Source: Chthoniobacteraceae bacterium
GTDB lineage: Bacteria; Verrucomicrobiota; Verrucomicrobiia; Chthoniobacterales; Chthoniobacteraceae
Assembly: GCA_947471505.1 (NCBI GenBank)
Contig: CANIWM010000030.1
Location: 1-59,725 of the forward strand
DNA length: 59,725 bases
Reading direction: 5' to 3'
Below, in pieces: positions 12,529 to 28,935 of this stretch (the stretch's first letter is position 1; every line of letters starts with the position of its first letter). A program made the translations under genes and the position numbers. The notes below the pieces were generated by a model. It had not been told where the DNA came from and made no database searches. It worked only from the letters and a program-made list of their open reading frames with translations.

Positions 12529-13431
12529 ATGACTCCGAGCACAACAGAGATAGAGCGGTGGGACAAAGAGATCGTCCCGAAACGTCGCCTGCTCGACATC
12601 CCGTGGCGGGAGTTGTGGCGCTACCGGGATTTGATCCGGCTGCTGGCGTTGCGCGACCTCACGGCGCAGTTCAAACAGACGGTGCTCGGACCGATGTGGT
12701 TCGTCATCCAGCCGTTGCTGGCGACGGTGGTTTTCAGTCTGATCTTCGGGCAACTCCTCAGCGGAAAGGATCAGAAGAACACGGACTCCACGCCGCACTT
12801 TATCTTCTATATGAGCGCGCTGATTATCTGGGGATTCTTCTCCGATTGCGTGACGAAGACGGCGAACACCTTCACGAAAAACGCGCAGTTGTTTGGGAAG
12901 GTCTATTTTCCCAGGCTGGCGGTGCCCATCGGCCAAGTGCTGACGAATCTCGCCAGCTTCACGATTCAGCTCTGTGTGCTGTTAGTGGGCGTGGGTTTTT
13001 ACTGCGCGAAAAAGAAGTGGTTCCCCGATGCGGCGCACCCCATCCACCTCGACCCAAATTGGCGCGTGCTGCTGCTGCCGATCTTCCTTTTACAAGCGGC
13101 GATGCTAGGGCTGGGCCTCGGGCTCATCGTATCGGCGCTGAGCACGCGCTACCGCGATCTGGCGATGGCGACGGGCTTCGGGATGCAGCTCCTCATGTAC
13201 GGCAGCTCGGTGGCGTTCCCGGTGGGGCGGCTGGATAATGCGCTCGTGGCAAAGGTGCTGATGCTGAATCCGATGGTGCCGATTGTGGAGGCGATGCGCC
13301 TCGCTTTTACGGGCAAGGGGACGGTGACGAAGGAGTATCTGGCGGTCAGTTTCGCCGTCTCGCTGGTGGTCATGCTGGTGGGCGTGATGTCGTTTAATCG
13401 CACGGAGCAAAACGTGATGGACACTGTGTAA
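12529..13431 (+). CDS. ABC-2 polysaccharide export permease (Wzm-like)
   Basis: The 300-residue membrane protein has the hydrophobic segments and length of Wzm/KpsM-type permeases, which move a finished lipid-linked polysaccharide across the inner membrane. The N-terminal cytoplasmic part contains LRDLTAQFKQTVLGPMWFVI followed by a membrane segment, a hallmark of this family (RYRDL...LxxRDLxxRYxxxxLGxxW). About six membrane helices follow. It begins at ATG 12529 and ends one base before the ATPase gene, so the two form a transporter pair and head the glycan operon. Confidence 0.92.
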   Translation: MTPSTTEIERWDKEIVPKRRLLDIPWRELWRYRDLIRLLALRDLTAQFKQTVLGPMWFVIQPLLATVVFSLIFGQLLSGKDQKNTDSTPHFIFYMSALIIWGFFSDCVTKTANTFTKNAQLFGKVYFPRLAVPIGQVLTNLASFTIQLCVLLVGVGFYCAKKKWFPDAAHPIHLDPNWRVLLLPIFLLQAAMLGLGLGLIVSALSTRYRDLAMATGFGMQLLMYGSSVAFPVGRLDNALVAKVLMLNPMVPIVEAMRLAFTGKGTVTKEYLAVSFAVSLVVMLVGVMSFNRTEQNVMDTV

Positions 13432-13432
13432 A

Positions 13433-14677
13433 ATGGGCGTTGTCGTAAGAGTCGAGAACCTCGCCAAGCGTTACCAGCTCGGCGAACTGAGCCGGAAGAC
13501 GTTCGTCGCCGACTGGCGGCGGAAGCTCTCGGGTGGGGTGGAAGCGGAGGATGCGCCGGGGGTTTATTGGGCGCTGCGGGATGTGAGTTTCGATGTGGAG
13601 CAGGGCGAGGTTATCGGCATTCTTGGACGCAATGGCGCGGGGAAATCTACGCTGCTGAAAATACTGAGTTCCATCACGGCTCCGACGCGCGGCTCCATCA
13701 AGCTGAAGGGCCGCATCGCGTCGCTGCTGGAGGTCGGCACGGGCTTTCACCAAGAGCTTTCCGGGCGCGACAATGTGTTTTTGAACGGCGCGATTCTCGG
13801 CATGTCGAATCGCGAAGTGGCGTCGAAGTTCGACGAGATCGTCGCTTTCTCCGGCGTGGAGCAGTTCCTCGATACGCCGGTGAAACGATACTCGTCCGGG
13901 ATGCGCGTGCGGCTGGCATTTGCGGTGGCAGCCCACTTGGACGCGGAACTGCTGATGATCGATGAGGTGTTGGCGGTCGGTGACGCAGCTTTCCAGGCAA
14001 AGTGCCTTGGCAAAATCGGTGAAGTGGCCGGCTCCGGGCGGACGGTTCTTTTTGTGAGTCACAATGCCGCGACCGTGGAATCGCTTTGCAAACGAGGAAT
14101 CGTGTTAAGGTCGGGCAGGGTGGCTTTCGACGGCACCCAGTCCGAAGCGTTGCGCTTCTATGCAGAGCAAAATTCAGTTGTTGGCGTCAGCATGAGGGAA
14201 AGCGCTGACCGCGTCGGCAGTGGAGAGATCCGAGTTGTAGAAGTGGAGTTCCGCAATCGGTTGGGGCGCGTCGTACAAACGGTGAACTCTGGCGACGACC
14301 TTTCTGTGTGGCTTCACTTTGAGAACCCTCGAGAGGTTCAGTTCCCGCAATTAAACGCGCGGATTAATGTCCACACGCAACTGGGTGTTCCGGTCTTCAC
14401 CCAGTCGAATCAACTTGTTGGCAAAGGCTTCGGAAAGCTTCCCGCTCGGGGAGCGTTTGTTTGCAAGATTCCGCGTCTGCCTGTGCCCGCATCGACCTAT
14501 CGAGTCACCTTTCAAATCTCCACCAGCTACCGACAGGCGGAGATGATTGATTCCGTGGAGGATGCCACGGAACTCACGGTGGAAACCGGAGACTTCTTCG
14601 GAACCGGCATGGTTCCCGCGCTTCCCTCCGGAACCTCACTGGTGCCCGCACAGTGGGAAATGGAGTCCGATGTTTGA
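13433..14677 (+). CDS. ABC polysaccharide export ATPase with Wzt-type C-terminal domain
   Basis: This is the ATPase partner of the upstream permease. Walker A is GRNGAGKST (65-73), the signature is YSSGMRVRLAFA (153-164), Walker B is LLMIDEVLAVGD (173-184) and the switch histidine is in VLFVSHN. Beyond about residue 245 a beta-rich domain of about 170 residues follows (SGEIRVVEVEFRNRLGRVVQ). Such C-terminal domains in Wzt recognise the modified non-reducing end of the polysaccharide, so the glycan is probably end-capped. The gene overlaps the next one by 8 bases. Confidence 0.92.
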   Translation: MGVVVRVENLAKRYQLGELSRKTFVADWRRKLSGGVEAEDAPGVYWALRDVSFDVEQGEVIGILGRNGAGKSTLLKILSSITAPTRGSIKLKGRIASLLEVGTGFHQELSGRDNVFLNGAILGMSNREVASKFDEIVAFSGVEQFLDTPVKRYSSGMRVRLAFAVAAHLDAELLMIDEVLAVGDAAFQAKCLGKIGEVAGSGRTVLFVSHNAATVESLCKRGIVLRSGRVAFDGTQSEALRFYAEQNSVVGVSMRESADRVGSGEIRVVEVEFRNRLGRVVQTVNSGDDLSVWLHFENPREVQFPQLNARINVHTQLGVPVFTQSNQLVGKGFGKLPARGAFVCKIPRLPVPASTYRVTFQISTSYRQAEMIDSVEDATELTVETGDFFGTGMVPALPSGTSLVPAQWEMESDV

Positions 14678-15152
14678 GACTTCGATTCGCCCTCTAAATG
14701 CCGGCGACGCGCCTGCGCTTGCGAAGCTCCTCGCGAAACAGCGCGCGGATTACGTCGCTCATTTTTCGCCGTTCGAATTTGATGAACGCACAGTTGCAGA
14801 AGTGTTGTCCGCCGCGCGCCGCGATCGCTTTTGGGCGCTTTGCACCGATGGAGAGATCGCAGGATTCTTCATGTTGCGGGGTTTTGATGCGGGATATGCG
14901 AGGCCGAGTTACGGCGTCTTCCTCGCAGCGCATGCAGCGGGTCGTGGGCTCGCGCGGGAGTCTTTGCGTTTCGCCCTCGAGTGGTGCGCCGAAAATGGCG
15001 TGGAAAGTGTCCTTTTGAAAGTCGCGCGGGAGAATCAGCGGGCCCGCGGAATCTACATTGCCGCAGGGTTTGAGTTTGTGGGAATCTGTCCTGCAACCGG
15101 GCACGAGATGCTCGAAAAGAGAATGCAGCCAGCCGAAAAATCATGTCCGTAG
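14670..15152 (+). CDS. GNAT-family N-acetyltransferase
   Basis: The 160-residue protein starts with ATG at 14670 inside the end of the ATPase gene. It has the GNAT layout: an N-terminal strand-helix (SIRPLNAGDAPALAKLLAKQ), an acetyl-CoA-binding motif A region (YGVFLAAHAAGRGLARESLR) and a motif B tail (VARENQRARGIYIAAGFEFVG). It likely acetylates an amino-sugar intermediate or the glycan, as similar enzymes do in nonulosonic-acid and bacillosamine pathways. The substrate is inferred from context only. An alternative start further upstream in this frame lies inside the ATPase gene and is unlikely. Confidence 0.8.
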   Translation: MFETSIRPLNAGDAPALAKLLAKQRADYVAHFSPFEFDERTVAEVLSAARRDRFWALCTDGEIAGFFMLRGFDAGYARPSYGVFLAAHAAGRGLARESLRFALEWCAENGVESVLLKVARENQRARGIYIAAGFEFVGICPATGHEMLEKRMQPAEKSCP

Positions 15153-16624
15153 AAGCAAAGCCAAAGCCTGTTTTTCAGCTCCGCGACGGACTGTGGCATC
15201 AGGGCGCGTTTGCCGATGACGAGGCGGGATTGCTCGCAGAGGCGGAGAAGGACCCGAAAGCCGTCGGATTGCGGCTCCTCGCGCAGAAGCGCTACCAACC
15301 GGCAGCGCCCTTTTTGGAACTGGCCGTCGCGCAAATGCCCGACGACTTTGATGTGCGTTTGGCGCTCGGTCGCGCGCTCTCGATGGGCAGTCGCTGGCCC
15401 GCAGCAGAGGAGCACCTCGCGCATGCCGTCAAGCTGGACCCTCGCTCGCAGGAGGCCCGCTACCACTACGGCGAAGTGCTGCTGAAAGTCGGACGGTTTC
15501 CTGCCGCAGAAGAGCAATTCCAAGCGGCGCAGAAATTACGTCCTCTTTGGAAAAAAGTGACGACCATGATCCGTTCGTGGTTCCAGCCGCCGCCAAAATT
15601 TCCGCCGCACGTCAACCCGGCGACTTACGACCCGGCGGCGAAGCTGCATTTCGCAACATCCCGGCGCGAGGCCCTTGCGCGGGCTGCGAAAGCGGCGAAT
15701 GTCGGCGAGCCGAATCGCGCATGGAAGAGTGCCGAACGAGGCCGGAAATTCACGGTGCGTAACGTGCCGCTCATTCGAAAAGACACTAAGATTTTTGCCA
15801 TTGGAAGCTGCTTCGCGCTCGAGATTCGGCATGAACTGATGCGGCGGGGCTTTGACGTGTTTCCAAAGTATCACGCGATCGATTTCGACCCGGAAACGCA
15901 AATCCTGAATTCGCTTCCGGACCGCGATAACATCAACCACTACGACACGTTCACGATTCGCCAGGAGTTTGAGCAGGCCTTTTCCGGAACGCACTTCAAT
16001 GCGGATGATTTCTGGACGGTGCAGGGCCGTGGAATCAACCGGGTGATGAAGCGCGAGACGGTGTGGCAGGACCCGTATCGGAAAAACATGTATGCCGCGG
16101 ACGAGGCTGGAATCCGCAGCCTGAGCGAGAAAGTGGATCAGTGTATCGCCGAGGGAATCATGGCGGCGGATGTTTACATCATCACACTGGGCCTCATTGA
16201 GACATGGCTGAATAAAGCGAACGGCCTCCACGCATGCACATATCCCGGCGTGGGTGGCGGGGGTGGCGCAGCGTACGTGGAGCTTCACGTCGCAGGATTC
16301 AAAGAAAACTACGAGAACCTCCGCCGCATTTGTGAGCTGCTCTTCGAGCGGTTTCCCGAAAAACATCTCATTTTGACGGTCTCGCCAGTGGCGCTGGAAA
16401 GCACCTTCCGCGATATCGATGTGGTGCTCGCAAACATGGAGAGCAAGGCGACTTTGCGCGCGGTTGCGGGCCAGATTTGCCGTGAGTTTCCGAACGTCCA
16501 CTACCTACCCAGCTACGAGTTGTTCATGTATCACGACTTGCATCACGATAACGGCCGCCACGCGACTCGCGACGGAGTAGGTATCGTCCTCGATCTTTTC
16601 GCAAAATGCTTCATCGCTCCGTAG
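15143..16624 (+). CDS. TPR + GSCFA domain protein
   Basis: The 493-residue protein overlaps the acetyltransferase gene by 10 bases. Residues about 45-135 form TPR-like helical repeats (APFLELAVAQMPDDFDVRLA and EEHLAHAVKLDPRSQEARYH). From about 215 the GSCFA domain starts with the name-giving motif FAIGSCFALEIRHELMRRGF (GSCFA at 221-225). GSCFA proteins are SGNH-hydrolase-like and often sit in polysaccharide clusters. Here the late HDLHHDNGRHATRDG stretch may supply the catalytic His/Asp of such a fold. A role as glycan O-acyl transferase or esterase is an inference. Confidence 0.8.
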   Translation: MSVEAKPKPVFQLRDGLWHQGAFADDEAGLLAEAEKDPKAVGLRLLAQKRYQPAAPFLELAVAQMPDDFDVRLALGRALSMGSRWPAAEEHLAHAVKLDPRSQEARYHYGEVLLKVGRFPAAEEQFQAAQKLRPLWKKVTTMIRSWFQPPPKFPPHVNPATYDPAAKLHFATSRREALARAAKAANVGEPNRAWKSAERGRKFTVRNVPLIRKDTKIFAIGSCFALEIRHELMRRGFDVFPKYHAIDFDPETQILNSLPDRDNINHYDTFTIRQEFEQAFSGTHFNADDFWTVQGRGINRVMKRETVWQDPYRKNMYAADEAGIRSLSEKVDQCIAEGIMAADVYIITLGLIETWLNKANGLHACTYPGVGGGGGAAYVELHVAGFKENYENLRRICELLFERFPEKHLILTVSPVALESTFRDIDVVLANMESKATLRAVAGQICREFPNVHYLPSYELFMYHDLHHDNGRHATRDGVGIVLDLFAKCFIAP

Positions 16625-16646: not shown

Positions 16647-17675
16647 ATGGAAAAAACAACCAACGTCCAGACGGGTTATCTCTGCCACTGCCTGCGGATC
16701 ACGGCGGAGCGCTACGAGCACATGCTCGACGAAATGGCGTGCCCGAATTTTCCCGACATGAAAAAGGAGCACGGCATCGGCAGCCTTTGCAGCTCGTGTG
16801 AATACGAGGCGAAAGGAGTTTTGCAGGAATACATGCTCCTTCATCCCGAAAAAACGGTCGCCAAGGCAAAGCGTCCCGAAGGCCTTCGAGAGGAACTGGG
16901 ATTCGCATGGGGCGAAATCAAAAAGCGCCTGCGCCCCGCGAAGAAAAAGCGCGTGCTCGACCACTCGCAGTCCACCGGCGCGAAGGTGTATCACACGGGG
17001 GTATTCTTCATGCGGCGCGGAGGTATGGAGTCGCATCTTGTGGTGTCGAACCTCGCGTTCCCCGAGCATCCGGCGAACGTAAACGGAGCGTCCGCTTCGT
17101 TTCGTGCGACGCTTTATGGCCACGACGGGCAAAAGCTCTCGACGTCACGCCCGATCGCGGTCGCAGACAATCAGACGCTTGAACTGTCTCCGTCCGACCT
17201 CTTTCCGGATGTGAAAGGTGACTTCACCGGCGGCTTGTATGTGGACTATCAGGAACTCACTCAGACGGGCTCGCTCCGGCCTTATGGAGTGATGGTGAGC
17301 ACGGTCCCGGATTTTCGCGCCCGGTGCCACTATCACGACAAGTTTGGCCTCTTTCGTGAACCGGGATTCTTCCAGAACACTTCTCCGTTTGAACCCGGCC
17401 AGAAATGCTGGATGGCTCTCGCGAACTGCCAACGGCTGCAATACGACACGGAGGTTCACGCGAAAGTCGATGGTCGCAAATTTACGGCAAAATTGAGCAT
17501 CCCGCCGATGGGAGCCGCGTGGTTGAAGCTGGAGGATTTATTTCCCGAAGTGGCGCACATCCCCGCCGAGAAGCGTTCCCCTGCGCTCTTCTGGCTGGAG
17601 AATCCGCAGCACGTCATGCTCTATTTTTATTGGTTCAACGAAGTGTCCCGGACCTGGATGGGACAGCATCATTAA
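16647..17675 (+). CDS. Bfd-like [2Fe-2S] protein with C-terminal unknown domain
   Basis: The first 60 residues carry C13-x-C15 and C48-x-x-C51 in the contexts GYLCHCLRIT and IGSLCSSCEYEAK. Spacing and flanks closely resemble bacterioferritin-associated ferredoxin (CxC, about 32 residues, then CxxC followed by AA-like helix), so a [2Fe-2S] cluster is predicted. Residues about 105-342 form a beta-rich domain (VVSNLAFPEHPANVNGASAS, LYVDYQELTQTGSLRPYGVM) that I do not recognise. The gene sits 22 bases after the GSCFA gene and 4 bases before the next unknown gene. A redox or regulatory role in glycan assembly is possible but unproven. Confidence 0.6.
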   Translation: MEKTTNVQTGYLCHCLRITAERYEHMLDEMACPNFPDMKKEHGIGSLCSSCEYEAKGVLQEYMLLHPEKTVAKAKRPEGLREELGFAWGEIKKRLRPAKKKRVLDHSQSTGAKVYHTGVFFMRRGGMESHLVVSNLAFPEHPANVNGASASFRATLYGHDGQKLSTSRPIAVADNQTLELSPSDLFPDVKGDFTGGLYVDYQELTQTGSLRPYGVMVSTVPDFRARCHYHDKFGLFREPGFFQNTSPFEPGQKCWMALANCQRLQYDTEVHAKVDGRKFTAKLSIPPMGAAWLKLEDLFPEVAHIPAEKRSPALFWLENPQHVMLYFYWFNEVSRTWMGQHH

Positions 17676-17679
17676 TCCT

Positions 17680-18444
17680 ATGGCAAAATCCACAAAACCG
17701 GTCCGTGAATGGGTGCCGTCGTGCTTCCTCGTGATGCACGACAAGAACGTATCGACGTCGATTCGATACTCGCCAATGCACATCCAGCGGGCGGATGTGA
17801 CGTATTTTTCCTCCATCAAGATTTACGGTCGCAATCCGGTGAACCCCGTCTGGAGCGCAGACAGCGGCGCGATGCATATCGACGATGTTTTCAATATCGA
17901 CAGCGCAAAAATCGCCGCCGACCTCGGTGTGGAAAAGCTGCTCGCATACGGCGAGGCTTTTAACCACACGCCCGACATGGCGCCGCCCACACCAAACGTC
18001 GCGATGCCCGTGCATATGCACTTTTCGTCCACCGACGGGAGCATGTTCGGCCACCTCGCGAGCTTCTTCATTTTCGGCGCACCGCGGAGTGTTCAGCGCG
18101 GAGATTTTTATTACGAAAATTTCCCCGGCGCTCGCGTCGATGAGGACCATCACATCTCCGCATTCGTCATCAATCCGTTCGTCCGCACGGGGCGTTTCCG
18201 TGTCATTATCGTGGATGCGGAATTCGGTCGTTGGGAATCGCCCGAGATGACGGTGAAAGGGAAGAACGTCGCTGAGTGGACGAGCATCGGGAGCGATTGC
18301 CCGCGCTCGAAGAACCCAATCGGAATCATCGTGAAAGCCGACCTTAAAACGTCCGCATTTTTCGCCACTCGCGCAGCCGATGGAATGATGATCGGACTCG
18401 ATCACGGCCATCCATTTCTCGCGCAGGTTCTCGATCACCAGTGA
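17680..18444 (+). CDS. Unknown protein of the glycan operon
   Basis: The 254-residue soluble-looking protein has no signal peptide or membrane helix. It is rich in histidine and aromatic residues (VAMPVHMHFSSTDGSMFGHL, EDHHISAFVINPFVRTGRFR) and predicted to be mostly beta strand. I recognise no family. It begins 4 bases after the Bfd-like gene, and its TGA overlaps the GTG of the neuB gene, so it is surely co-expressed with them. Its beta-rich make-up is loosely similar to the C-terminal half of its upstream neighbour, which suggests the two act together, but I could not align them convincingly. Confidence 0.55.
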   Translation: MAKSTKPVREWVPSCFLVMHDKNVSTSIRYSPMHIQRADVTYFSSIKIYGRNPVNPVWSADSGAMHIDDVFNIDSAKIAADLGVEKLLAYGEAFNHTPDMAPPTPNVAMPVHMHFSSTDGSMFGHLASFFIFGAPRSVQRGDFYYENFPGARVDEDHHISAFVINPFVRTGRFRVIIVDAEFGRWESPEMTVKGKNVAEWTSIGSDCPRSKNPIGIIVKADLKTSAFFATRAADGMMIGLDHGHPFLAQVLDHQ

Positions 18445-19466
18445 GCTTCATCCACACCAATCGCGCCTACGTCATCGCGGAGGCCGGCGTGAATCATAAC
18501 GGTTCGCTAGACCTCGCCCGGAAGCTCGTGCTCGCAGCGAAAGAAGCGGGCGCGGATGCGGTGAAGTTTCAGACTTTCAAAGCCGAACGCGTGGCGCAGG
18601 CCAACGCACCTAAGGCGGATTATCAGCTCCGCAATACCGACCGCGGCGAATCGCAAATCGAAATGCTGCGAAAATTGGAACTGCCCGATTCCGCTCACGC
18701 AGAATTGATCGCGCTGTGCCGCGAAGTGGGCATCGAGTTTCTCTCCACGCCCTACAACGAAGAGGATATCGACTTTCTCCAAGGACTGGGAGTGCGCGCG
18801 TTCAAGCTCGCGAGCATCCACTGTGTCGAGCCGCACATTCTGCGCTACGCAGCGCGGACAGGGCGGCATCTCATCGTCTCCACCGGCATGGCGACGCTCG
18901 CGGAAGTCGGCGCTGCGGTCGCGGCGATGCGTGGCGTGGGGCACGAAGATTTTACGCTTCTTCAATGCACGACGAACTATCCGTCCGCCGTCGCCGATGC
19001 GAACCTGCGGGTGATTCCGCTGCTCCGCGAGGAATTTGGATGCGCGGTCGGATACAGCGACCACACGCAGAGCGATGTGTCGTCCATCGCCGCCGTCGCG
19101 CTTGGGGCTACGATGATCGAGAAGCATTTCACGCTCGATAATTCGATGCCCGGCCCCGATCACACGAGCGCCGCCGAGCCTGCCGAATTTGCCGCGCTTG
19201 TGGAGAAAATCCGCGCGACGGAATCTGCGCTCGGCAGTGGAGTAAAAAAGCCGTGCGCCGCCGAAATGGCGAACGCCGCGAACATGCGCCGCAGTCTCGT
19301 GGCCCGCCGTAACATCGCGCTCGGCGAAGTCATCACGGAGGGCCATCTCACCTGCCAGCGCCCGGCGACTGGAATCAGCCCGCTGCGAGTCGATGAAATC
19401 ACAGGACGCATCGCCGATGCCGATATCGCCGCCGGGACACGTATCGAGTTCGCAATGATCGTGTGA
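18441..19466 (+). CDS. neuB: N-acetylneuraminate/nonulosonic acid synthase (NeuB family)
   Basis: NeuB condenses phosphoenolpyruvate with a 6-carbon amino sugar to make a nonulosonic acid (sialic, legionaminic or pseudaminic type). The 341-residue protein starts with GTG 18441, overlapping the upstream TGA. It has the TIM-barrel motifs AEAGVNHNG, AVKFQTFKAE, IVSTGMATLAEV, TLLQCTTNYPS, GYSDHTQSDVSS (Mn-binding His) and MIEKHFTLD (second Mn-binding His), then a C-terminal SAF/antifreeze-like domain (about 275-341, SLVARRNIALGEVITEGHL). Which sugar is used cannot be decided from the sequence alone. Confidence 0.93.
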   Translation: MSFIHTNRAYVIAEAGVNHNGSLDLARKLVLAAKEAGADAVKFQTFKAERVAQANAPKADYQLRNTDRGESQIEMLRKLELPDSAHAELIALCREVGIEFLSTPYNEEDIDFLQGLGVRAFKLASIHCVEPHILRYAARTGRHLIVSTGMATLAEVGAAVAAMRGVGHEDFTLLQCTTNYPSAVADANLRVIPLLREEFGCAVGYSDHTQSDVSSIAAVALGATMIEKHFTLDNSMPGPDHTSAAEPAEFAALVEKIRATESALGSGVKKPCAAEMANAANMRRSLVARRNIALGEVITEGHLTCQRPATGISPLRVDEITGRIADADIAAGTRIEFAMIV

Positions 19467-19542: not shown

Positions 19543-20406
19543 TTGCCAATCTTCCTTTCCAGCGGAGCATTCGCCAGCCATTCGCCAGTCGAGATCGCAG
19601 CGGAGTGCGAGACTCTCGGTGTGGGACTGGAATTCACTTCGAGCTTTCCGTTTCGCGCACACCTCGAGTCGGAAGTGCGGCAACTTCGCGCTCCATCTCT
19701 GCTGATTCACAATTACTTCCCTACGCCGGAAATCCCGTTCGTGCTAAATCTTGCCGCCACCGACCCGCAAATCCGGACAGAGAGCCATGCCCTTTGCCGT
19801 CGTGCGATTGAGCTGACCGCGGCAATAGGCGCTCCGTTTTACAGCGTCCACAGCGGCTTCGCGATGAACCTGACCGCCGAACAACTCGGCCAGCCCGCGC
19901 AGCAAGCGGCGCTCGGTGCGGACCGCTGCATCGACCATGAAACTGCAAATCATGCTTTTCGGGATTCGGTCGCGGAACTCTCGTCATTCGCCAAATCACG
20001 CGGCGTCGGTTTGCTTTTGGAAAACAACGTCATCACCCGCAAGCAAATCGCCGCTGGTCGCGCCGACTCGCTGCTGATGACCGCGCCGTCCGAGTGCCGC
20101 CAATTTCTAGACGATCTTGCCGATCCAAATGTCGGGCTGCTTCTCGACGTGGCTCACGCGAAAGTCTCCGCAGGTGCGCTGGGCTTCGATCCCGCCGGGT
20201 TCTTTCAAATCGGCAAACACCTCCGCGCGCTACATCTGAGCGACAACGACGGCGAGGCCGACACGAACCAGCCCGTGACCCGCGACTCGTGGTTTGTTCC
20301 GCATCTCCGCGACTGCCGTGAGTTGCCGATGGTCGTCGAGGTTTACCGTCTCACGACGGAGACTCGCCAGCAGCAGCGCGATGTGGTGCGCTCTTTCTTT
20401 TCATGA
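19543..20406 (+). CDS. Sugar phosphate isomerase/epimerase-like TIM barrel protein
   Basis: The 287-residue protein belongs by pattern to the xylose-isomerase/AP-endonuclease-2 TIM-barrel family. Typical signs are YSVHSGFAMN, GLLLENNVITRK (metal-ligand Glu), LLLDVAHAKVSA (Asp/His), LRALHLSDNDGEAD (His, Asp) and VVEVYRL (Glu) at the ends of successive strands. It probably isomerises or epimerises a sugar intermediate of the neighbouring nonulosonate pathway. I chose the TTG at 19543 (LPIFLSSGAF) as start because it lies right before the first predicted strand. The 3' end overlaps the aminotransferase gene by 4 bases. Confidence 0.75.
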   Translation: MPIFLSSGAFASHSPVEIAAECETLGVGLEFTSSFPFRAHLESEVRQLRAPSLLIHNYFPTPEIPFVLNLAATDPQIRTESHALCRRAIELTAAIGAPFYSVHSGFAMNLTAEQLGQPAQQAALGADRCIDHETANHAFRDSVAELSSFAKSRGVGLLLENNVITRKQIAAGRADSLLMTAPSECRQFLDDLADPNVGLLLDVAHAKVSAGALGFDPAGFFQIGKHLRALHLSDNDGEADTNQPVTRDSWFVPHLRDCRELPMVVEVYRLTTETRQQQRDVVRSFFS

Positions 20407-21875
20407 TCCAACGCCGCGATATTTCCGAAAACATCCTGCCGGGCAGCGCCTCGCTGAAAGACGTCCTCATGGCGCTCAACCGCGGGATCCAAGGCGTGGT
20501 CTTCATCGTCGATGACGCAGGCGCGATGATCGGACTCTTTACCGACGGCGACGCCCGCCGCGCGCTGCTGGGTGATGGCCAGCTCGGCGACTCCGCAGCG
20601 AAGCACATGAATCGGAAATTCACCGTGGGAAAAGCGGCAGATTCCCGGCAGGAAAACCTCAAACTCCTCAACGAACGCGTGCGTCATTTGCCGCTGCTCG
20701 ACGAAGCAGGACGGCCGGTGGAGATGATCACTTGGGCGGAAATGTGGAGGCTCCCGATCATGGAGCCGTCGCTCGGCGGGAACGAGTTGAAGTATGTAAG
20801 CGACTGCCTCGTATCCGGCTGGATTTCCTCGCAGGGACCGTACGTTCGCCGATTCGAGGAAGCGTTCGCCGCATTTCACGGCGTTCCGCATGCGCTCACA
20901 GTGTCAAACGGAACGACCGCACTCCACCTCGCGCTCGTCGCACTCGGCATAGGCCCGGGCGACGAAGTCATCGTGCCCGATCTCACGTTCGCCGCTTCCG
21001 CAAATGTCGTCATCCACTGCGGTGCGATACCTGTGCTTGCAGACGTTACACCCGATACCTGGACGCTCGATCCCGCGGACGTCGCGCGCAAAATCACGCC
21101 GCGTACTCGCGCCATCATGCCGGTGCATCTCTACGGGCACCCGTGCGATATGGACCCGCTCATGGCGCTTGCGAAACAGCACAATCTCTTCGTAGTCGAG
21201 GACAACGCCGAGGCGCTCGGAGCAGAGTATCGCGGGGTAAAGACCGGCACGATCGGCGAGGTGGGCTGCTTCAGCTTTTTCGCCAACAAAGTCATCACAA
21301 CCGGTGAGGGCGGAATGGTGATTTGCCGAGACCCTGTGCTATTTCAGAAGATGCAGGTCCTCCGCGACCACGGCATGGAAAAGAGCCGCCGCTACTGGCA
21401 TCTCGTCCCCGGCTTCAACTATCGGCTCACGAGCATGCAGGCGGCCATCGGCCTCGCGCAGATGGAGCGGCTCGAACACTTCCTCACGCGACGCGACGAA
21501 ATCGTTGCCCGCTACGATGCCGTTCTTTCCAAAGTGCCCGGAATCGTCCTGCCGCCGCGCGCATCGTGGGCGCGCAATATCCACTGGCTCTACTCGATTC
21601 TCGTCGAACCGACGCTCGCGGGCATCGATCGCGACGCTCTCGCATCGAGGCTCGGCGAGTTGGGAATCGAAACACGCGGATTCTTTTTCCCGCTCCACAT
21701 CATGCCGCCCTACGCAAGCGCGGAGGCGTTCCCGGTGACCACGGATGTTTCTTCACGCGGACTTTCGCTTCCCACGGCGAACGATATTCGCCTCGAGGAT
21801 GTGGACCGTGTTTGCGCGGCGATTGCCGACATCGTCCGCACCGCCCAAACGCTGAAAAACCACACGGTTGCGTAG
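20403..21875 (+). CDS. CBS-domain / DegT-type aminotransferase fusion
   Basis: The 490-residue protein joins two parts. Residues 1-118 look like a CBS pair (VFIVDDAGAMIGLFTDGDAR, then LPLLDEAGRPVEMITWAEMW), the kind of unit that binds adenine nucleotides and regulates enzymes. Residues about 120-485 are a DegT/DnrJ/EryC1 PLP aminotransferase: SNGTTALHLALVAL, VEDNAEALGAEYRG (Asp 267) and the Schiff-base lysine K296 in FANKVITTGEGG. It would transfer an amino group to a keto-sugar, as in legionaminic or pseudaminic acid synthesis. CBS pairs are better known on the nucleotidyltransferase PtmE of that pathway, so this fusion is unusual. Confidence 0.85.
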   Translation: MIQRRDISENILPGSASLKDVLMALNRGIQGVVFIVDDAGAMIGLFTDGDARRALLGDGQLGDSAAKHMNRKFTVGKAADSRQENLKLLNERVRHLPLLDEAGRPVEMITWAEMWRLPIMEPSLGGNELKYVSDCLVSGWISSQGPYVRRFEEAFAAFHGVPHALTVSNGTTALHLALVALGIGPGDEVIVPDLTFAASANVVIHCGAIPVLADVTPDTWTLDPADVARKITPRTRAIMPVHLYGHPCDMDPLMALAKQHNLFVVEDNAEALGAEYRGVKTGTIGEVGCFSFFANKVITTGEGGMVICRDPVLFQKMQVLRDHGMEKSRRYWHLVPGFNYRLTSMQAAIGLAQMERLEHFLTRRDEIVARYDAVLSKVPGIVLPPRASWARNIHWLYSILVEPTLAGIDRDALASRLGELGIETRGFFFPLHIMPPYASAEAFPVTTDVSSRGLSLPTANDIRLEDVDRVCAAIADIVRTAQTLKNHTVA

Positions 21876-23106
21876 TCTTTCGTCCTTGGAACTCTGGAAA
21901 AAACTCACCGACCGTGTTCTTGAGGACACGTCCACAAGCGGCACAAAGTTCTCGCCTCTTGATGGCTTGCGCGGCATCGCAGTGCTGGTCGTTTTCCTCA
22001 GCCACAGCTCCGGCTTTCGCCAACGACTCACGCCGTGGACGAGCTTTCACGGCACCGGGCACCTCGGCGTTTACCTCTTTTTTGTCCTTAGTGGATTCCT
22101 CCTCACGTGGTCGCTCCTCGCCGCCCCGCGCATTAACTTCACTGGGTTCTATCTCCGGCGCTTTTTCCGCATCGCGCCGCTCTTCTACCTCGTCGTTTCC
22201 GTAGTCTTCGCTGTCCAGCTTTGGAGTGGGCGTGTCGATCTCTTCAACCTCCACATCAAGGACGGGTGGCCCGGCTACATCCGGCATCTGTTCTTTTATC
22301 AGGGCGACAGCGTTTTTTGGACGATTGCTGCGGAGTTCGAGTTTTACATCATCCTTCCGTTTTTCGTTCTCGCGCTCGTGCGTGGCGGCGGAAAAGTGGC
22401 GGCGTTCTTTGCCGTCACCGCGATCGCATACGGCATTTGGTATTTGCTTATCGAGGTCGGGAAAGTGGACGCGCGCTACTCGCTGAAGGTTGCCAGAATC
22501 GTTCACCATTCGCAGTATCTCGACGTCTTTATTTACGGCATCCTCTCCGCATGGATTTTCCGCAGGCCGGAGTTTAATGCGCAGATGCAAAAAGACAGCT
22601 CCGTGCTCCACATGTTCGCGACATTGATGGTCGTCAGTATCCTGTCCGTTTCGCTCCTCCTCGTGTCGGAAAACTTCTTTGGATTCGGACGCTTTTGGCG
22701 CAACGAGCAACTGTGGTGGCAGATCATGAAATTGCCGGAGAAATTCGGTCCGCAATCTTGGTCGCTCTTTTATGGGCCTGCATTTGCGATCGTAGCGCTC
22801 GCCACGCTCACCGGGCATCGGGCGTTGCAGCGGCTTTGCGACTGGCGTCCGCTGCGGCTCGTCGGTGTCACCGGTTTTAGCTGGTATCTCATCCACTTCC
22901 CGATCCTTCGAATGGTCAATGCACTCTACGGCTTCAAATCGGTCGCCGGTGGCGAAGTTGCCTGGACACTGCGTGAACCTCTCGCGCTGGTCACGAGTTT
23001 CGTCGTTACATCCGCTGCGGCCGTGCTGCTTTATCTCAGCATCGAAAAGCCGTTCATGATGCTTTCGCGCAATCTTCTCCGCCGGTCGAAGGCGGTCGCT
23101 GTATGA
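21868..23106 (+). CDS. Acyltransferase 3 family membrane O-acyltransferase (OafA-like)
   Basis: This integral membrane protein has about ten helices over 412 residues. It carries the family hallmarks LDGLRGIAVLVVFLSHSSGF, GVYLFFVLSGFLLT and FYLRRFFRIAPLFYL, which mark acyltransferase-3 enzymes that O-acetylate surface glycans (OafA/YrhL type). The catalytic-type histidine is in FLSHSSG. It starts at TTG 21868, overlapping the aminotransferase stop; a second TTG at 21886 is also possible. It likely adds acetyl groups to the lipid-linked or exported glycan. Confidence 0.85.
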   Translation: MRSLSSLELWKKLTDRVLEDTSTSGTKFSPLDGLRGIAVLVVFLSHSSGFRQRLTPWTSFHGTGHLGVYLFFVLSGFLLTWSLLAAPRINFTGFYLRRFFRIAPLFYLVVSVVFAVQLWSGRVDLFNLHIKDGWPGYIRHLFFYQGDSVFWTIAAEFEFYIILPFFVLALVRGGGKVAAFFAVTAIAYGIWYLLIEVGKVDARYSLKVARIVHHSQYLDVFIYGILSAWIFRRPEFNAQMQKDSSVLHMFATLMVVSILSVSLLLVSENFFGFGRFWRNEQLWWQIMKLPEKFGPQSWSLFYGPAFAIVALATLTGHRALQRLCDWRPLRLVGVTGFSWYLIHFPILRMVNALYGFKSVAGGEVAWTLREPLALVTSFVVTSAAAVLLYLSIEKPFMMLSRNLLRRSKAVAV

Positions 23107-23789
23107 CGCTCTGCTTCATTCCAGCACGGGGCGGTTCGAAGCGGATCCCCGGAAAAAACATCCGCTCACTCGCCGGACGTCCGCTCATCGAATGGACGAT
23201 TGCCGCCGCGAAAGACAGCCGTTGTTTTGACAGTGTCGTGGTCTCCTCTGATGACGAAGATATTCTCCGAATCGCGAACGGAGCGGGAGCGATCGCGGAT
23301 CGACGCTCACCGGAACTCAGCGGTGATCGCGTTCGTTTTGTCGAAGTGCTGGAGGAGTTCCTCAATCGCCCGGAAAATACGGGGAAATATACTACAGTCA
23401 CCGCGTTGCTCCCGACATGTCCTTTTCGCAATGCGGTGGACATTCGTGCAGCGGTGGAACTACACACGCTCGACGGCGAGACCTTTGTTGTAAGCATCAG
23501 CGCATACGAGTTTCCACCTGAATTTGCGTGTGATTTCGATGTCGCGAGTGGAGCGTTGAATCTGCGGCAACCCGAAATCTATGCGCGAAGCACCCAGAGC
23601 CAGTCGGTGAAGCCGGCGTTTCATCCGAACGGGGCCATCTACGTAGGGTCGGTGGAGCGATTTCTCACGACGCGTTCGTTCTTCGCATCGCCGATTATCG
23701 GCACCCTGCTCCCGCCGGAACGCGCTCTCGATCTCGATCATCCACACCAATGGGAGATCGCCGAGGCACTTGCCCTAAAGCACCTATGA
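23103..23789 (+). CDS. neuA: CMP-nonulosonate (acylneuraminate) cytidylyltransferase
   Basis: NeuA-type enzymes activate a nonulosonic acid with CTP to CMP-sugar, ready for transfer. The 228-residue protein opens with the diagnostic FIPARGGSKRIPGKNI nucleotide-binding loop, followed by GRPLIEWTIAAA, VVSSDDEDILRIA, ALLPTCPFRN and the late NGAIYVGS and LDLDHPHQWEIAEAL segments, all typical. The length matches single-domain bacterial CMP-NeuAc/CMP-legionaminate synthetases. ATGA overlaps join it to both neighbours. Confidence 0.92.
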   Translation: MTLCFIPARGGSKRIPGKNIRSLAGRPLIEWTIAAAKDSRCFDSVVVSSDDEDILRIANGAGAIADRRSPELSGDRVRFVEVLEEFLNRPENTGKYTTVTALLPTCPFRNAVDIRAAVELHTLDGETFVVSISAYEFPPEFACDFDVASGALNLRQPEIYARSTQSQSVKPAFHPNGAIYVGSVERFLTTRSFFASPIIGTLLPPERALDLDHPHQWEIAEALALKHL

Positions 23790-24835
23790 AAACCGTCCAC
23801 ATCGGAAAAGTCCCCGTCGGCGATGAACATCCCGTCGCACTCGCTGCGGAAATCGGCACATACTTTAATCAGGACATCGCGCTCGCTCGCGACTACCTCG
23901 CGCAAGTGGTCGAGGCCGGGGTGCCGCTGTTTAAGACAGAGATCCTCCACAACGCTGATGTCTGTCTCCGGGCGAGCGGACTGAATATTACGTTCAACCA
24001 CGCGACGGGAAAACAAGTGGAGTCGTATCGCGCACTCATTGAGCGAAAGACCGTCCCGCTCGCGGATTACGGGAAGCTCTTCGCGGAGTGCCGCACGCTC
24101 GGAATCCCGTTCATTGCATCGGTTTATGATCGGGAAGGCGTGGACTTCTTCGTCCAGGAAGGCGGTGCGGCGCTGAAAATCGCGCGCCATAATATGGCAC
24201 ATCTGCCGCTCATCGAATCCTGCGCGAAGACCGGACTGCCGGTGATTTTCGATGCGGGCCTCGTTTATCTCGATGAACTCGCGCGCGCTGTGCGTATTGC
24301 TCAAACGGCGGGTGCTCCGGTGATCATCAATCACCATCCCGGTCCGAACCCGACGCCAGCCGATCGGCAAAATCTGCGCGTGATTCAAACGTGGAAGCAG
24401 ACCTTCGAAGTACCGGTGGGAATTTCGTGTCACTATCGCGGCGACGAGATTCTTTACGCCGCAGTCGGGCTCGGCGCGAATCTCATTGAGAAGGGTGTCG
24501 TCGATGACAACACCCGAGTGGAACAGGACGTGGTATCGGCGCTCAATTTGTCTGAGGTCAAATCGTTCAACCAAAAGCTGCTCAATTGCTCCGCCGCGCT
24601 CGGCTCGCGATTCCCGCAAATTGCCGAGCCGCGTGACCTGAACACCCGCAAAGGACTTGTTGCCACTCGCGACATCGCCGGCGGTGAAAAGCTCGGCCCG
24701 ACAAATGTTGACTTCGCCTGGCCGCCGCTCGGTGTGAAGTCCGAGGACTGGGCGCTCGTCGCCGGACAATCCGCGGCGCGGTCGATCGCGCAAGGCGAGC
24801 CGATCCGGATGGAGGACATTCAATTTGGAAACTAA
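23786..24835 (+). CDS. Divergent NeuB-like protein with SAF domain
   Basis: The 349-residue protein starts at ATG 23786 inside the neuA stop codon. It keeps the overall NeuB plan: TIM barrel from AAEIGTYFNQDIALARDYLA, a barrel strand GISCHYRGDEILYAAVGLGA and a C-terminal SAF-like domain (DLNTRKGLVATRDIAGGEKL). Several signature residues differ from NeuB at 18441. KFQTF is replaced by LFKTEIL, the TTxYP motif by NHHPGPNP, and MIEKHFTLD by LIEKGVVDD, so one of the two Mn-binding histidines is missing. It may use another substrate, lack a metal, or have lost activity. Confidence 0.8.
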   Translation: MKTVHIGKVPVGDEHPVALAAEIGTYFNQDIALARDYLAQVVEAGVPLFKTEILHNADVCLRASGLNITFNHATGKQVESYRALIERKTVPLADYGKLFAECRTLGIPFIASVYDREGVDFFVQEGGAALKIARHNMAHLPLIESCAKTGLPVIFDAGLVYLDELARAVRIAQTAGAPVIINHHPGPNPTPADRQNLRVIQTWKQTFEVPVGISCHYRGDEILYAAVGLGANLIEKGVVDDNTRVEQDVVSALNLSEVKSFNQKLLNCSAALGSRFPQIAEPRDLNTRKGLVATRDIAGGEKLGPTNVDFAWPPLGVKSEDWALVAGQSAARSIAQGEPIRMEDIQFGN

Positions 24836-25883
24836 ACCACCACGTGCGGAATTTGGCTGGCCCGGCGGGGATCGTCCGGGAGAGCTGGTTTTTCGTACGC
24901 CGGTCGAACCTTACGTGCGCGCTGTGATCGTGAAAACGGTCGCCGCAGTGCTGCCCGAGTTTGGTGAGAATGCGGAACTGCACGCGCTGACTCCGCCCGA
25001 TGGTGCTATCGGACGCTACCGTCTCGCGACCGCGCGCAACGCATGCTTTGTCCGGGTGAGTGCCCGCATTGGCGATGCGAAGCTGGAGCAGTCCCTTACG
25101 GCGTGGCTCGGAGGTCACGGACTGCCGGTGAGTCATTTGGAATTTGCCGGCCTTTCGCTCGCATTTGGCGGACACAACTTGCGGCTCGATATCCGCGAGC
25201 TTCTGGATGCGCGCCATGATGATGGATCGCTCGAAGACCTCCGCAAAGTCGCGACTGCGCTGGCCACCTGTCATCGATTTCTCCGCGAATTTCCCGGCGC
25301 AGCTGAAGTGCGCGGGCACGCAGCGCAGCGCTTTACCCATCTCGCAGCGGTGCGCGACACGATCGCGACGGCGCTGGGTCGGCAGGAATGGGGCGTATTT
25401 TCGGAGGATGCCGACTGGGCGCGGAACAATGGCGAGTGGCTGGGGGAAATGGTGGACGGTTATCAGCCGCGGTTCGATCTGATGCCGGACGCGCATTGCC
25501 TTCATGCGCAGGTGCATCGGGCCAATGTGCTTTTCCGTCACAGCGACGATGCTGCGGTGCTGCTGGACTTCGAGGAAGCGGTGCAGACGTTTGCGCCCAT
25601 CGCTTGGGATCTTGCGTATTTTGTCCAGCGTTTCTGCCTCGCAGACGCGCCGAAGACGGACGTGCTCCGCGAACGGCTCGCGACTGTTCGTGGTGCGTAC
25701 GGAGCGCCTGCGCCGGGACTCGCCAATATGATGCAACAGACGGCATGGTTTTCCATGGCGATTCTCGTCGATTACCAGCACCGTGGAATTGTGAGCCCGC
25801 GCAGTGAATACGACAAATTCGTCCGCCTTGAAAAACAGGCGCGAGGGTTGGCGCCGATTCTGGGAGAGTTTTTTGATGACTGA
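24825..25883 (+). CDS. Aminoglycoside-phosphotransferase-like protein, probable pseudokinase
   Basis: The 352-residue protein starts at TTG 24825 within the upstream gene's end. Its C-terminal half resembles APH/choline-kinase-fold enzymes: HAQVHRANVLF (227-237) aligns with the HGDxHxxN catalytic loop, and AVLLDFEEA (D248) with the metal-binding loop, followed by APIAWDLAYFVQRF. The catalytic aspartate position is Gln229 (HAQ instead of HGD), so phosphotransfer is doubtful. Asn234 and Asp248 of the metal site are kept. It may bind a sugar or nucleotide without catalysis, or use another base. Confidence 0.65.
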   Translation: METKPPRAEFGWPGGDRPGELVFRTPVEPYVRAVIVKTVAAVLPEFGENAELHALTPPDGAIGRYRLATARNACFVRVSARIGDAKLEQSLTAWLGGHGLPVSHLEFAGLSLAFGGHNLRLDIRELLDARHDDGSLEDLRKVATALATCHRFLREFPGAAEVRGHAAQRFTHLAAVRDTIATALGRQEWGVFSEDADWARNNGEWLGEMVDGYQPRFDLMPDAHCLHAQVHRANVLFRHSDDAAVLLDFEEAVQTFAPIAWDLAYFVQRFCLADAPKTDVLRERLATVRGAYGAPAPGLANMMQQTAWFSMAILVDYQHRGIVSPRSEYDKFVRLEKQARGLAPILGEFFDD

Positions 25884-27402: not shown

Positions 27403-28036
27403 TCGCGATCATGCCTTCGCCGATGGGCTGGCCTTTGCCCGTCCGAAAAAGCGGCCGTTCTTTGAGAAGCCATGGACCCCGGAGGGCCGGGCCGCGGCGG
27501 CATGGGTGCAGTTCGACCGCAGCGCGCAGATAGGAAAAGGATGCCTGCTCGGGCCCAATGCATGGTGTGTAAACAGTGCGGGTGATCCAGCCCGACTCGT
27601 CCTCGGGGCGGGGGTGGTCTGCCGGGGATTGCTGCGGATTGAAAAATTCGGCGCAGGCCGGATCGAAATAAGCGCGAGCGCTTACATTGGCGACGATTGC
27701 CTGTTGAGTTCGTCCGCGGGCATTTTCATCGGCGAACACGTCCTGCTCGCGCATGGTGTGCAGATTTTTGACAATGACAGTCATCCGCTCGATCCCGCAG
27801 CGCGGGTCGCTGACTACGCATCCGTGCATGCGCACGGAGACCGCGGACAAATCGCGGCGAAGCCTGTGAAGATTGGCGCCAAGGCGTGGGTCGGGTTTGG
27901 CGTCATCATTATGAAAGGCGTGACCATCGGGGAAAACAGCGTCGTCGCAGCGGGGAGCGTCGTGACGCGCGATGTCCCGCCGAACACCGTCGTGGCTGGC
28001 AATCCCGCTGCGATCGTGAAAACCATCGAATCATGA
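27392..28036 (+). CDS. Hexapeptide-repeat acyltransferase (acetyltransferase)
   Basis: The 214-residue protein carries left-handed beta-helix repeats ([LIV]-G-x-x-x), e.g. IGKGCLLGPNAW, IGDDCLLSSSAGIFIGEHVLL and the end IGAKAWVGFGVIIMKGVTIG, closing with VVAAGSVVTRDVPPNTVVAGN and PAAIV. The NDSHPLD stretch contains the catalytic-type histidine of the maltose/galactoside acetyltransferase-like group. It would O- or N-acetylate a sugar with acetyl-CoA. It overlaps both neighbours (11 bases upstream, ATGA downstream). Confidence 0.85.
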   Translation: MPVDRDHAFADGLAFARPKKRPFFEKPWTPEGRAAAAWVQFDRSAQIGKGCLLGPNAWCVNSAGDPARLVLGAGVVCRGLLRIEKFGAGRIEISASAYIGDDCLLSSSAGIFIGEHVLLAHGVQIFDNDSHPLDPAARVADYASVHAHGDRGQIAAKPVKIGAKAWVGFGVIIMKGVTIGENSVVAAGSVVTRDVPPNTVVAGNPAAIVKTIES

Positions 28037-28935
28037 ATTTGCTCGAACCATTCCAGCGCGCGATGAAGCGGCTGAATTCCATTTGGAAAAGCATCGGCCA
28101 TCTTTCGCGCGACGCTGCGTTGATTCGAGAGGCACTCGGACGAATCGAGGCGAGGCAAACCGCGACGGCGGGAGCGAGTTTCGCCGAGCAGGAATTCCGT
28201 GTGTTCTCGCAGTGGGGCGAAGATGGGATTCTCGCGCATTTGCTGCGCCATGTAAAAGTCCCGCGGAAGATTTTCGTGGAGTTTGGCGTTGAGACGTACG
28301 TGGAGGCAAACACGCGCTGGCTGCTGGTGAATGATGGCTGGACTGGACTCGTGCTCGACGGAAGCGAGGACAACATCGCGACGATTCGACGCGACCCGGT
28401 TTACTGGCAGCATCCGCTGAAAGCCGCACAAGCATTCATCACGCGGGAGAATATCAACGATCTCCTCACGGCGCAGGGACTCAGCGGTGAAATCGGGATT
28501 TTGAGCGTCGATATCGATGGCGTGGACTATTGGGTTTGGGAGGCCATCTCATCCGTTCAGCCGGCTATCGTGGTAGCTGAATACAATTCGCTGCTCGGCT
28601 CCGAGCGCGCGGTGACCGTGCCCTACGATCCAGAATTTCAGCGGGCGAAAGCGCATCATTCACACAGCTACTACGGCGCATCGCTCGCCGCGCTCGTGGC
28701 TCTCGGAAAACGGAAAGGTATGGCGTTTGTCGGCTCGAACACCGCAGGCAATAATGCGTTCTTTGTCCGCCGCGATTTGCTCACAGGCCCGTTGCGCGAG
28801 TTGACTGCGGCGGAAGGCTACGTGCGCCGCGGTTTCCGCGAAGCGCGTGATACGGAGGGCAAGTTGGTGTTTCCGAATTTTGAGGAAGAAGCGGCGCTGG
28901 TGAACGCGCTGCCTTGGGTGGAGGTGGAGAAATGA
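28033..28935 (+). CDS. FkbM-like SAM-dependent methyltransferase-type protein
   Basis: The 300-residue protein starts at ATG 28033. Residues about 55-200 resemble FkbM-type methyltransferases: EFRVFSQWGEDGILAHLL, KIFVEFGVETYVEANTRWLL (glycine-poor SAM motif I), GLVLDGSEDNIATIR and ILSVDIDGVDYWVWEAI. It might methylate a sugar hydroxyl in the glycan. The final third (SYYGASLAALVALGKRKGMA) is common in this subgroup. An upstream in-frame extension overlaps the acetyltransferase gene and was rejected in favour of the ATGA-coupled start. Confidence 0.7.
   Translation: MNLLEPFQRAMKRLNSIWKSIGHLSRDAALIREALGRIEARQTATAGASFAEQEFRVFSQWGEDGILAHLLRHVKVPRKIFVEFGVETYVEANTRWLLVNDGWTGLVLDGSEDNIATIRRDPVYWQHPLKAAQAFITRENINDLLTAQGLSGEIGILSVDIDGVDYWVWEAISSVQPAIVVAEYNSLLGSERAVTVPYDPEFQRAKAHHSHSYYGASLAALVALGKRKGMAFVGSNTAGNNAFFVRRDLLTGPLRELTAAEGYVRRGFREARDTEGKLVFPNFEEEAALVNALPWVEVEK

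Follow-up and report, generated by a model that had tools for sequence, protein, structure and literature searches.

A Bfd-like four-cysteine domain joined to predicted ASRAH-like beta-sandwiches beside a nonulosonate-type glycan cluster in Chthoniobacteraceae

Here we describe a protein, P0001, in which an N-terminal four-cysteine domain resembling bacterioferritin-associated ferredoxin (Bfd) is joined to predicted beta-sandwiches that resemble the ASRT/ASRAH fold, and which is encoded together with a partner, P0003, among genes for a nonulosonate-type surface glycan. The combination of a Bfd-like domain with ASRAH-like sandwiches in a glycan locus looks like a new and very rare architecture of known parts. 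P0001 and its relative P0002 make up a two-member family, and the gene pair is rare in soil Verrucomicrobia.

Results

A Bfd-like domain at the N terminus of P0001

The window referred to below is the whole stretch of DNA that was analysed, 59,725 nucleotides long; its features are collected in Table 1. A preliminary description of this DNA had pointed to four cysteines as a [2Fe-2S] motif, and these are present in P0001 as quoted, C13-x-C15 within GYLCHCLRIT and C48-x2-C51 within IGSLCSSCEYEAK. In Pfam, the Fer2_BFD profile (PF04324) matches residues 11 to 61 over its whole length (positions 1 to 50 of 50; E 0.0077). The comparison of the N terminus with this profile, which had been proposed as a check, thus gave a full-profile match, although its 17.0 bits fall short of the curated cut-off of 26 bits. 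When its genome (G000) is scanned in six frames, the same domain reaches 20.9 bits, again below the cut-off. Among solved structures, four chains are listed, all of them bacterioferritin-associated ferredoxin; the best has E 0.067 with the single P0001 sequence (limit E 10) and E 0.0017 with a two-sequence P0001/P0002 profile (limit E 1).

The cysteine spacing is itself uncommon. Only 1 of the 264 stop-to-stop frames of at least 100 amino acids in the window contains the pattern C.C.{28,36}C..C, and shuffling produced it in 9 of 20,000 sequences for P0001 and in 14 of 20,000 for P0002. AlphaFold2 predicts helices at residues 20-29, 35-41 and 49-65 of the domain, with pLDDT below 50 across residues 1 to 89; Bfd has helices at matching places. 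From motif and profile we assign to P0001 a four-cysteine Bfd-like domain, whose binding of a [2Fe-2S] cluster is putative.

Table 1. Features of the window (positions on the forward strand)
Feature	Position	Strand	Remarks
ABC-2 permease and ATPase with Wzt C-terminal domain (glycan export)	12529..14677	+	Pfam
GNAT acetyltransferase	14676..15152	+	ORF start inferred; also adjoins the pair in G411
TPR and GSCFA (SGNH-hydrolase clan)	15143..16624	+	GSCFA (PF08885) 123.9 bits
P0001, 342 aa	16647..17675	+	ATG start; Bfd-like domain, variable linker and two predicted beta-sandwich repeats
Fer2_BFD-like four-Cys domain, P0001 residues 11-61 (C13, C15, C48, C51)	16677..16829	+	profile match
P0001 linker, residues 62-113	16830..16985	+	18% identity (8/44) between P0001 and P0002
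Predicted beta-sandwich 1, P0001 residues 114-222	16986..17312	+	best structural match TM1070/ASRT, aligned span 114-237
Predicted beta-sandwich 2, P0001 residues 223-342, possible repeat of sandwich 1	17313..17672	+	
P0003, 254 aa	17680..18444	+	adjoins P0001 in both genomes; residues 136-249 predicted ASRT/ASRAH-like sandwich
NeuB-family synthase	18441..19466	+	GTG start overlaps P0003 stop
CBS and DegT aminotransferase, LegC/PseC-like	20403..21875	+	below NCBIfam cut-offs
PseF-like cytidylyltransferase (below cut-off), second NeuB-family protein, kinase-like protein without Pfam match	23103..25883	+	counterparts in G411

One full-length relative, and a partner gene that accompanies both proteins

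Among 213 genomes of the order, the sole other full-length relative of P0001 is P0002, 48% identical and encoded in G411, a genome of another genus in the same family (contig record JAJPJG010000009.1, a Spartobacteria MAG). P0002 matches the whole Fer2_BFD profile with 28.1 bits, above the 26-bit cut-off. Seven of the eight cysteines of P0001 are kept in it, namely the four of the motif together with C227, C254 and C261, the one lost being C32, which lies outside the motif. The motif cysteines are therefore conserved, as the preliminary description had expected of homologues, in the one relative available for comparison. Identity between the two proteins amounts to 51% (26/51) in the Bfd-like domain and 54% (123/227) in the beta region (linker in Table 1), so that, as far as two sequences tell, conservation of the Bfd-like domain is about equal to that of the rest of P0001.

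Downstream of P0001, after a coding gap of 4 bp, lies P0003, and the arrangement recurs in G411, where P0004, a relative of P0003 with 55% identity, directly follows P0002 after 1 bp. Within the 213 genomes of the order, full-length P0001 and P0003 (profile, E ≤ 0.01) are each confined to G000 and G411. Pfam gives no match for P0003 or P0004, and the idea that P0001 and P0003 are paralogues was rejected, as they share no sequence similarity. No signal peptide is apparent by eye in P0001 or P0003, and no flavin, NAD or other redox domain was found with Pfam in P0001 to P0004. At 0.70, the GC3 of the P0001 and P0003 genes lies within the range of their neighbours (0.60-0.82).

Wider searches added no further member to the family. 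Genome contigs yielded no relative of P0001 with the single sequence and only the G411 record with the two-sequence profile; viral contigs yielded no P0001-type relative with either query. No match was obtained in plasmids for P0001 (E 1e-5) or P0003 (E 0.1), nor in PHROGs for either protein at E 1. In a sample of the phylum, P0001 was matched at E ≤ 0.001 in 1 of 387 genomes, the window's own; in a phylum sample of 150 genomes, the P0003 profile had matches in 2. At E ≤ 1, P0001 is matched in 22 of the 213 genomes of the order, full length in G000 and G411 only; the partial matches in the other 20 (22 places, E 0.036-0.81) were taken as chance. In a sample of the class, the A1 profile found 4 of 384 genomes at E ≤ 0.01. 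Two of these, G676 and G265, were not counted as carrying P0001 relatives, the weak matches covering only residues 9-70 and 8-70, respectively; these matches to the Bfd-like part lie in frames of 518 and 909 amino acids (L029, L030) in another family of the class. One of the P0003-profile matches in the phylum is weak, covering 77 positions (E 0.005) in a 485-residue frame of G047, from another class (L075, G047:C4:145488-145703).

The beta region resembles the ASRT/ASRAH fold in predicted structure

The remainder of P0001 had been described as an unknown beta domain of 240 residues. This has to be revised in part: two sandwiches are predicted, covering residues 114-222 and 223-342 approximately, and the first of them best matches ASRT/ASRAH, a fold with an eight-stranded beta-sandwich. 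The underlying AlphaFold2 models were built on two-row alignments and are of low confidence. That of P0001 has a mean pLDDT of 54.6, with the ten-residue blocks between 131 and 200 at 66-85; that of P0003 has a mean of 48.3, with the blocks between 151 and 240 at 61-81 and residues 1-118 below 50. The best VIA-align match of the P0001 model is 1nc7 (Thermotoga TM1070; Z 9.4, rmsd 3.0, 106 of 117 residues aligned), the next match reaching Z 5.1. For P0003, 1nc7 again comes first (Z 8.0), ahead of four ASRT entries from Anabaena (Z 5.8-6.0). In Foldseek, the three best matches of P0003 are chains of 1nc7 (best E 7.9e-5, probability 1.00). 1nc7 is absent among the 50 Foldseek matches listed for P0001, whose top matches, transglutaminases among them (TM-score near 0.14, rmsd near 20), we disregarded as meaningless. 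Since a Z of 7 to 8 is the typical best VIA-align score for models without a clear match, the ASRAH case rests on the agreement of the two models and on the drop in score to the matches that follow. In these low-confidence models, sandwich 1 of P0001 and the sandwich of P0003 independently have ASRT/ASRAH as their best-matching fold. The two sandwiches of P0001 show local similarity only (hhalign P 0.0026, 23 columns).

Membership of ASRT (PF07100) by sequence was rejected. Pfam gave no ASRT match for P0001 to P0004, and hhalign of the beta regions with 23 ASRT sequences from the order lent no support (P 0.11-0.55). We therefore call the beta region ASRAH-like and not a member of ASRT/ASRAH. 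In the excerpts available of a 2009 study (PMC2739507), the only paper found that connects ASRT with carbohydrate, structures and gene neighbourhoods are used to argue that the ASRT/ASRAH superfamily, TM1070 included, binds sugars. The same excerpts note ASRAH domains as dyads and tetrads, point to a conserved Asn where strand 2 ends, and give SHEshChhN as the ligand signature of the ASRT-like subfamily. By eye, the His and Cys of this signature are absent from P0001 and P0003, and only an Asn stands at the expected place. The candidates, N135 and N260 in P0001 and N165 in P0003, all lie at a strand end before a turn and are conserved; they are weak evidence, as 9 of the 10 Asn residues of P0001 are conserved anyway. 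Sandwich 2 of P0001 holds the conserved residues C227, H228, H230, C254, C261, H271, H322, H341 and H342, and the conserved Cys/His set in this second repeat might form another metal site.

The pair lies in a glycan cluster of variable composition

Flanking GSCFA and NeuB genes had been named in the preliminary description, and both were confirmed: the pair lies between the GSCFA gene and a NeuB-family synthase that exceeds the NnaB cut-off of NCBIfam (402.9 against 399.65 bits). The genes are tightly spaced, with the P0003 stop overlapping the NeuB start. Besides the genes of Table 1, the cluster also holds a TIM-barrel protein and an acyltransferase 3. The kinase-like protein at 24825-25883, which we take to be APH-like, has no Pfam match at E 0.001, and its gene adjoins a NeuB-like gene in all four loci compared. 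Further downstream, a 300-residue protein (28033-28935) likewise has no Pfam match at E 0.001 and is 90% identical in G413, a genome of the same genus. No flavin or ferredoxin-reductase domain was found in the 14 window neighbours scanned. For the GSCFA family, a 2022 review (PMC9487903) states in the part available that it has no known activity.

A nonulosonate-type cluster stands beside the pair in both genomes, and hence in two genera, so that a glycan neighbourhood, which the preliminary description had proposed to look for among homologues, is present in both. Between the window and G411, identity is 57% for the second NeuB-like protein, 48% for the cytidylyltransferase, 44% for the APH-like protein and 41% for the GNAT acetyltransferase; the aminotransferase of G411 scores above the LegC cut-off (453.6 against 420), whereas its window counterpart stays below. 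In G411, counterparts of the second NeuB, APH-like, cytidylyltransferase and aminotransferase genes are present, followed on the opposite strand by GNAT, P0004, P0002 and genes that by eye are secDF/yajC-like. The G411 pair (L025 9373-14365) is located just downstream of the secDF/yajC-like genes. Because it stands there, on the strand opposite the glycan cluster, the link between pair and glycan in G411 is one of adjacency only. GSCFA was not found in G411, G413 or G390, and from its absence in G411 we take the P0001-P0003 pair to be the minimal unit.

Of the 213 genomes of the order, 4 carry the APH-like gene: the two with the pair, and G413 and G390, from which the pair is absent. G413 has a colinear cluster in which GNAT and NeuB are separated by 11 bp (about 5971-5983 of L038, G413:C6:1-20000). 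GSCFA, P0001 and P0003 are absent from these 20 kb save for a chance-level match of 55 residues (E 0.41), and neither P0001 nor P0003 has a match elsewhere in the G413 genome (86% complete). Matches of 16-55 residues at L038 and L039 (E 0.29-0.96), considered as remnants of the three genes, were taken as chance. Given the colinear cluster without them, we regard GSCFA, P0001 and P0003 as an optional cassette.

Ferritin is not detected, and other Fer2_BFD domains belong to redox enzymes

The ferritin profile PF00210 has no match at E ≤ 0.01 in G000 (96.7% complete), although it matches 14 of 14 control genomes; G411 has one match, on another contig than the pair. The six-frame scan of G000 gave two Fer2_BFD matches at E ≤ 1, neither of which reaches the cut-off. 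P0001 is the better one; the other, in a 76-residue frame of G000:C53, is partial (profile positions 22-45, 14.5 bits). Across the order, Fer2_BFD is matched at E ≤ 0.01 in at least 5 of 213 genomes and above the cut-off in at least 3, with 30 first-look candidates scored in many of the genomes. Among the matches listed, those above the cut-off are P0002, a G405 reductase with NIR_SIR and pyridine-nucleotide reductase domains, presumably NirB-like, and a NO synthase of G586; those below are P0001 and a partial match (profile 24-49, 18.5 bits) in a 108-residue frame of G503:C146. No stand-alone Bfd above the cut-off is among the matches listed for the 213 genomes. The premise that Bfd normally serves iron release is hence too narrow, because Fer2_BFD is carried, among these matches, by a nitrite/sulfite-type reductase and a NO synthase. 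The G586 locus (L072, G586:C4), in a genome of 2.0 Mb, combines NO synthase oxygenase, Fer2_BFD and FAD/NAD domains; the stretch analysed ends within this gene.

Discussion

With bacterioferritin-associated ferredoxin, P0001 shares the C-x-C and C-x2-C pairs with their family flanks across the whole Fer2_BFD profile, and it differs from classical Bfd in carrying this domain at the N terminus of 342 residues, in a glycan context. Its likeness to ASRT/ASRAH (PF07100; TM1070, PDB 1nc7) lies in the top VIA-align match of both models, the candidate Asn residues and the glycan context, whereas profile support and the signature His and Cys are lacking and the fusion to a Bfd-like domain is a further difference. 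Titles and abstract openings of the papers listed yielded no description of a Bfd-like domain in a glycan locus, and Pfam, NCBIfam and PHROGs hold no family model for this architecture beyond the Bfd domain.

Rieske clusters are bound by two Cys and two His, and the Rieske protein CMAH (CMP-Neu5Ac hydroxylase) acts on a nonulosonate. The strongest claim of the preliminary description, that an Fe-S protein in glycan assembly would be new, falls in this general form, since Fe-S clusters are established in sugar-nucleotide chemistry. E1, E3 and SpnQ appear in excerpts of one paper (PMC8987622) as [2Fe-2S] proteins of nucleotide-sugar (deoxysugar) pathways, and CMAH in excerpts of another (PMC8227644) as a protein with an N-terminal Rieske Fe-S domain and a second domain. 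E1/E3 and SpnQ differ from P0001 as PMP- or flavin-dependent enzymes, and in E1 and SpnQ the PMP cofactor has four cysteines around it. CMAH shares with P0001 an N-terminal Fe-S-type domain joined to a second domain, but its domains are Rieske and beta-lactamase-like, neither Bfd nor ASRAH.

We tentatively favour a reading in which P0001 and P0003 would form an accessory, cytosolic module that binds glycan intermediates in a nonulosonate-type surface-glycan locus and is gated or powered by the Fe-S domain. The models suggest one well-matched ASRAH-like sandwich in each protein and probably two repeats in P0001. These sandwiches may assemble together, as proposed for ASRAH dyads and tetrads, and the assembly would hold an activated sugar or a lipid-linked glycan ahead of ABC export. 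The Bfd domain would carry a [2Fe-2S] cluster; through its redox or occupancy state this cluster might switch glycan binding, or it might pass electrons to a partner. Most likely the pair acts in the cytosol before export, given the Fe-S-type domain, the probable sugar-binding fold and the absence of an apparent signal peptide. With neither a flavin nor an NAD module detected in the pair, we prefer a redox- or iron-gated switch over catalysis. The elaborated version, a hetero-oligomer of sugar-binding ASRAH-like sandwiches and a Bfd-type [2Fe-2S] domain through which iron or redox state controls completion or export of a nonulosonate-type glycan, is a speculative one that we would not expect to hold in full.

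Alternatively, the Bfd domain could be an electron carrier that feeds oxidoreductive tailoring of a nonulosonate or another sugar in an E1/E3- or Rieske-like manner, with the step placed in a possible second metal site of P0001 (C227/H228/H230/C254/C261/H322) or in a partner enzyme. The two other Bfd domains above the cut-off among the matches listed (G405, G586) sit in redox enzymes, three more Cys and several His are conserved outside the motif, and the excerpts of PMC8987622 document Fe-S electron relays in sugar-nucleotide chemistry. However, the His/Cys conservation is weak, coming from two sequences that are 48% identical, and the missing flavin, NAD and other redox domains in P0001 to P0004 speak against such a relay. 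We prefer gated binding because neither the pair nor the 14 neighbours scanned contain a flavin or ferredoxin-reductase domain, and consider the electron carrier rather unlikely, the difference in likelihood between the two being modest. Also unlikely, in our estimate, is a structural site, with zinc or an inert cluster held by the four cysteines only to stabilise a glycan-binding scaffold. Four cysteines could hold another metal, and P0001 scores below the Fer2_BFD cut-off at 17 bits; against this, P0002 exceeds it over the whole profile, and the helices are predicted, with low confidence, at the places expected for Bfd.

The pair might instead be a mobile or stress-related unit that sits beside the glycan genes by chance, as its patchy presence in 2 of 213 genomes of the order, the absence of the cassette from the congener G413 and its place on the other strand beside secDF-like genes in G411 would suggest. 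Yet in both genera, different as the arrangements are, the pair stands near the same genes; the APH-like gene, present in so few genomes, is found in both pair-bearing ones; and the GC3 of the pair is that of its surroundings. We regard such a coincidence as quite improbable. Least probable by far is that P0001 acts as a classical Bfd and releases iron from bacterioferritin, a role for which the domain family alone speaks. Bacterioferritin was rejected as a partner since G000 has no PF00210 match, and the role is made unlikely by the lack, in that genome, of both a ferritin match and a Bfd domain above the cut-off. The single match in G411 is not on the contig of the pair, and in P0001 some 280 more residues are joined to the domain, in place of a short stand-alone protein.

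Should the gated binding module prove right, a single protein would link the assembly of surface glycans directly to iron or redox state. A Bfd-type domain would gain a role without ferritin and without a flavin enzyme, and the ASRAH fold, proposed to bind sugars, would acquire a partner open to testing and, in nonulosonate intermediates, a class of ligands.
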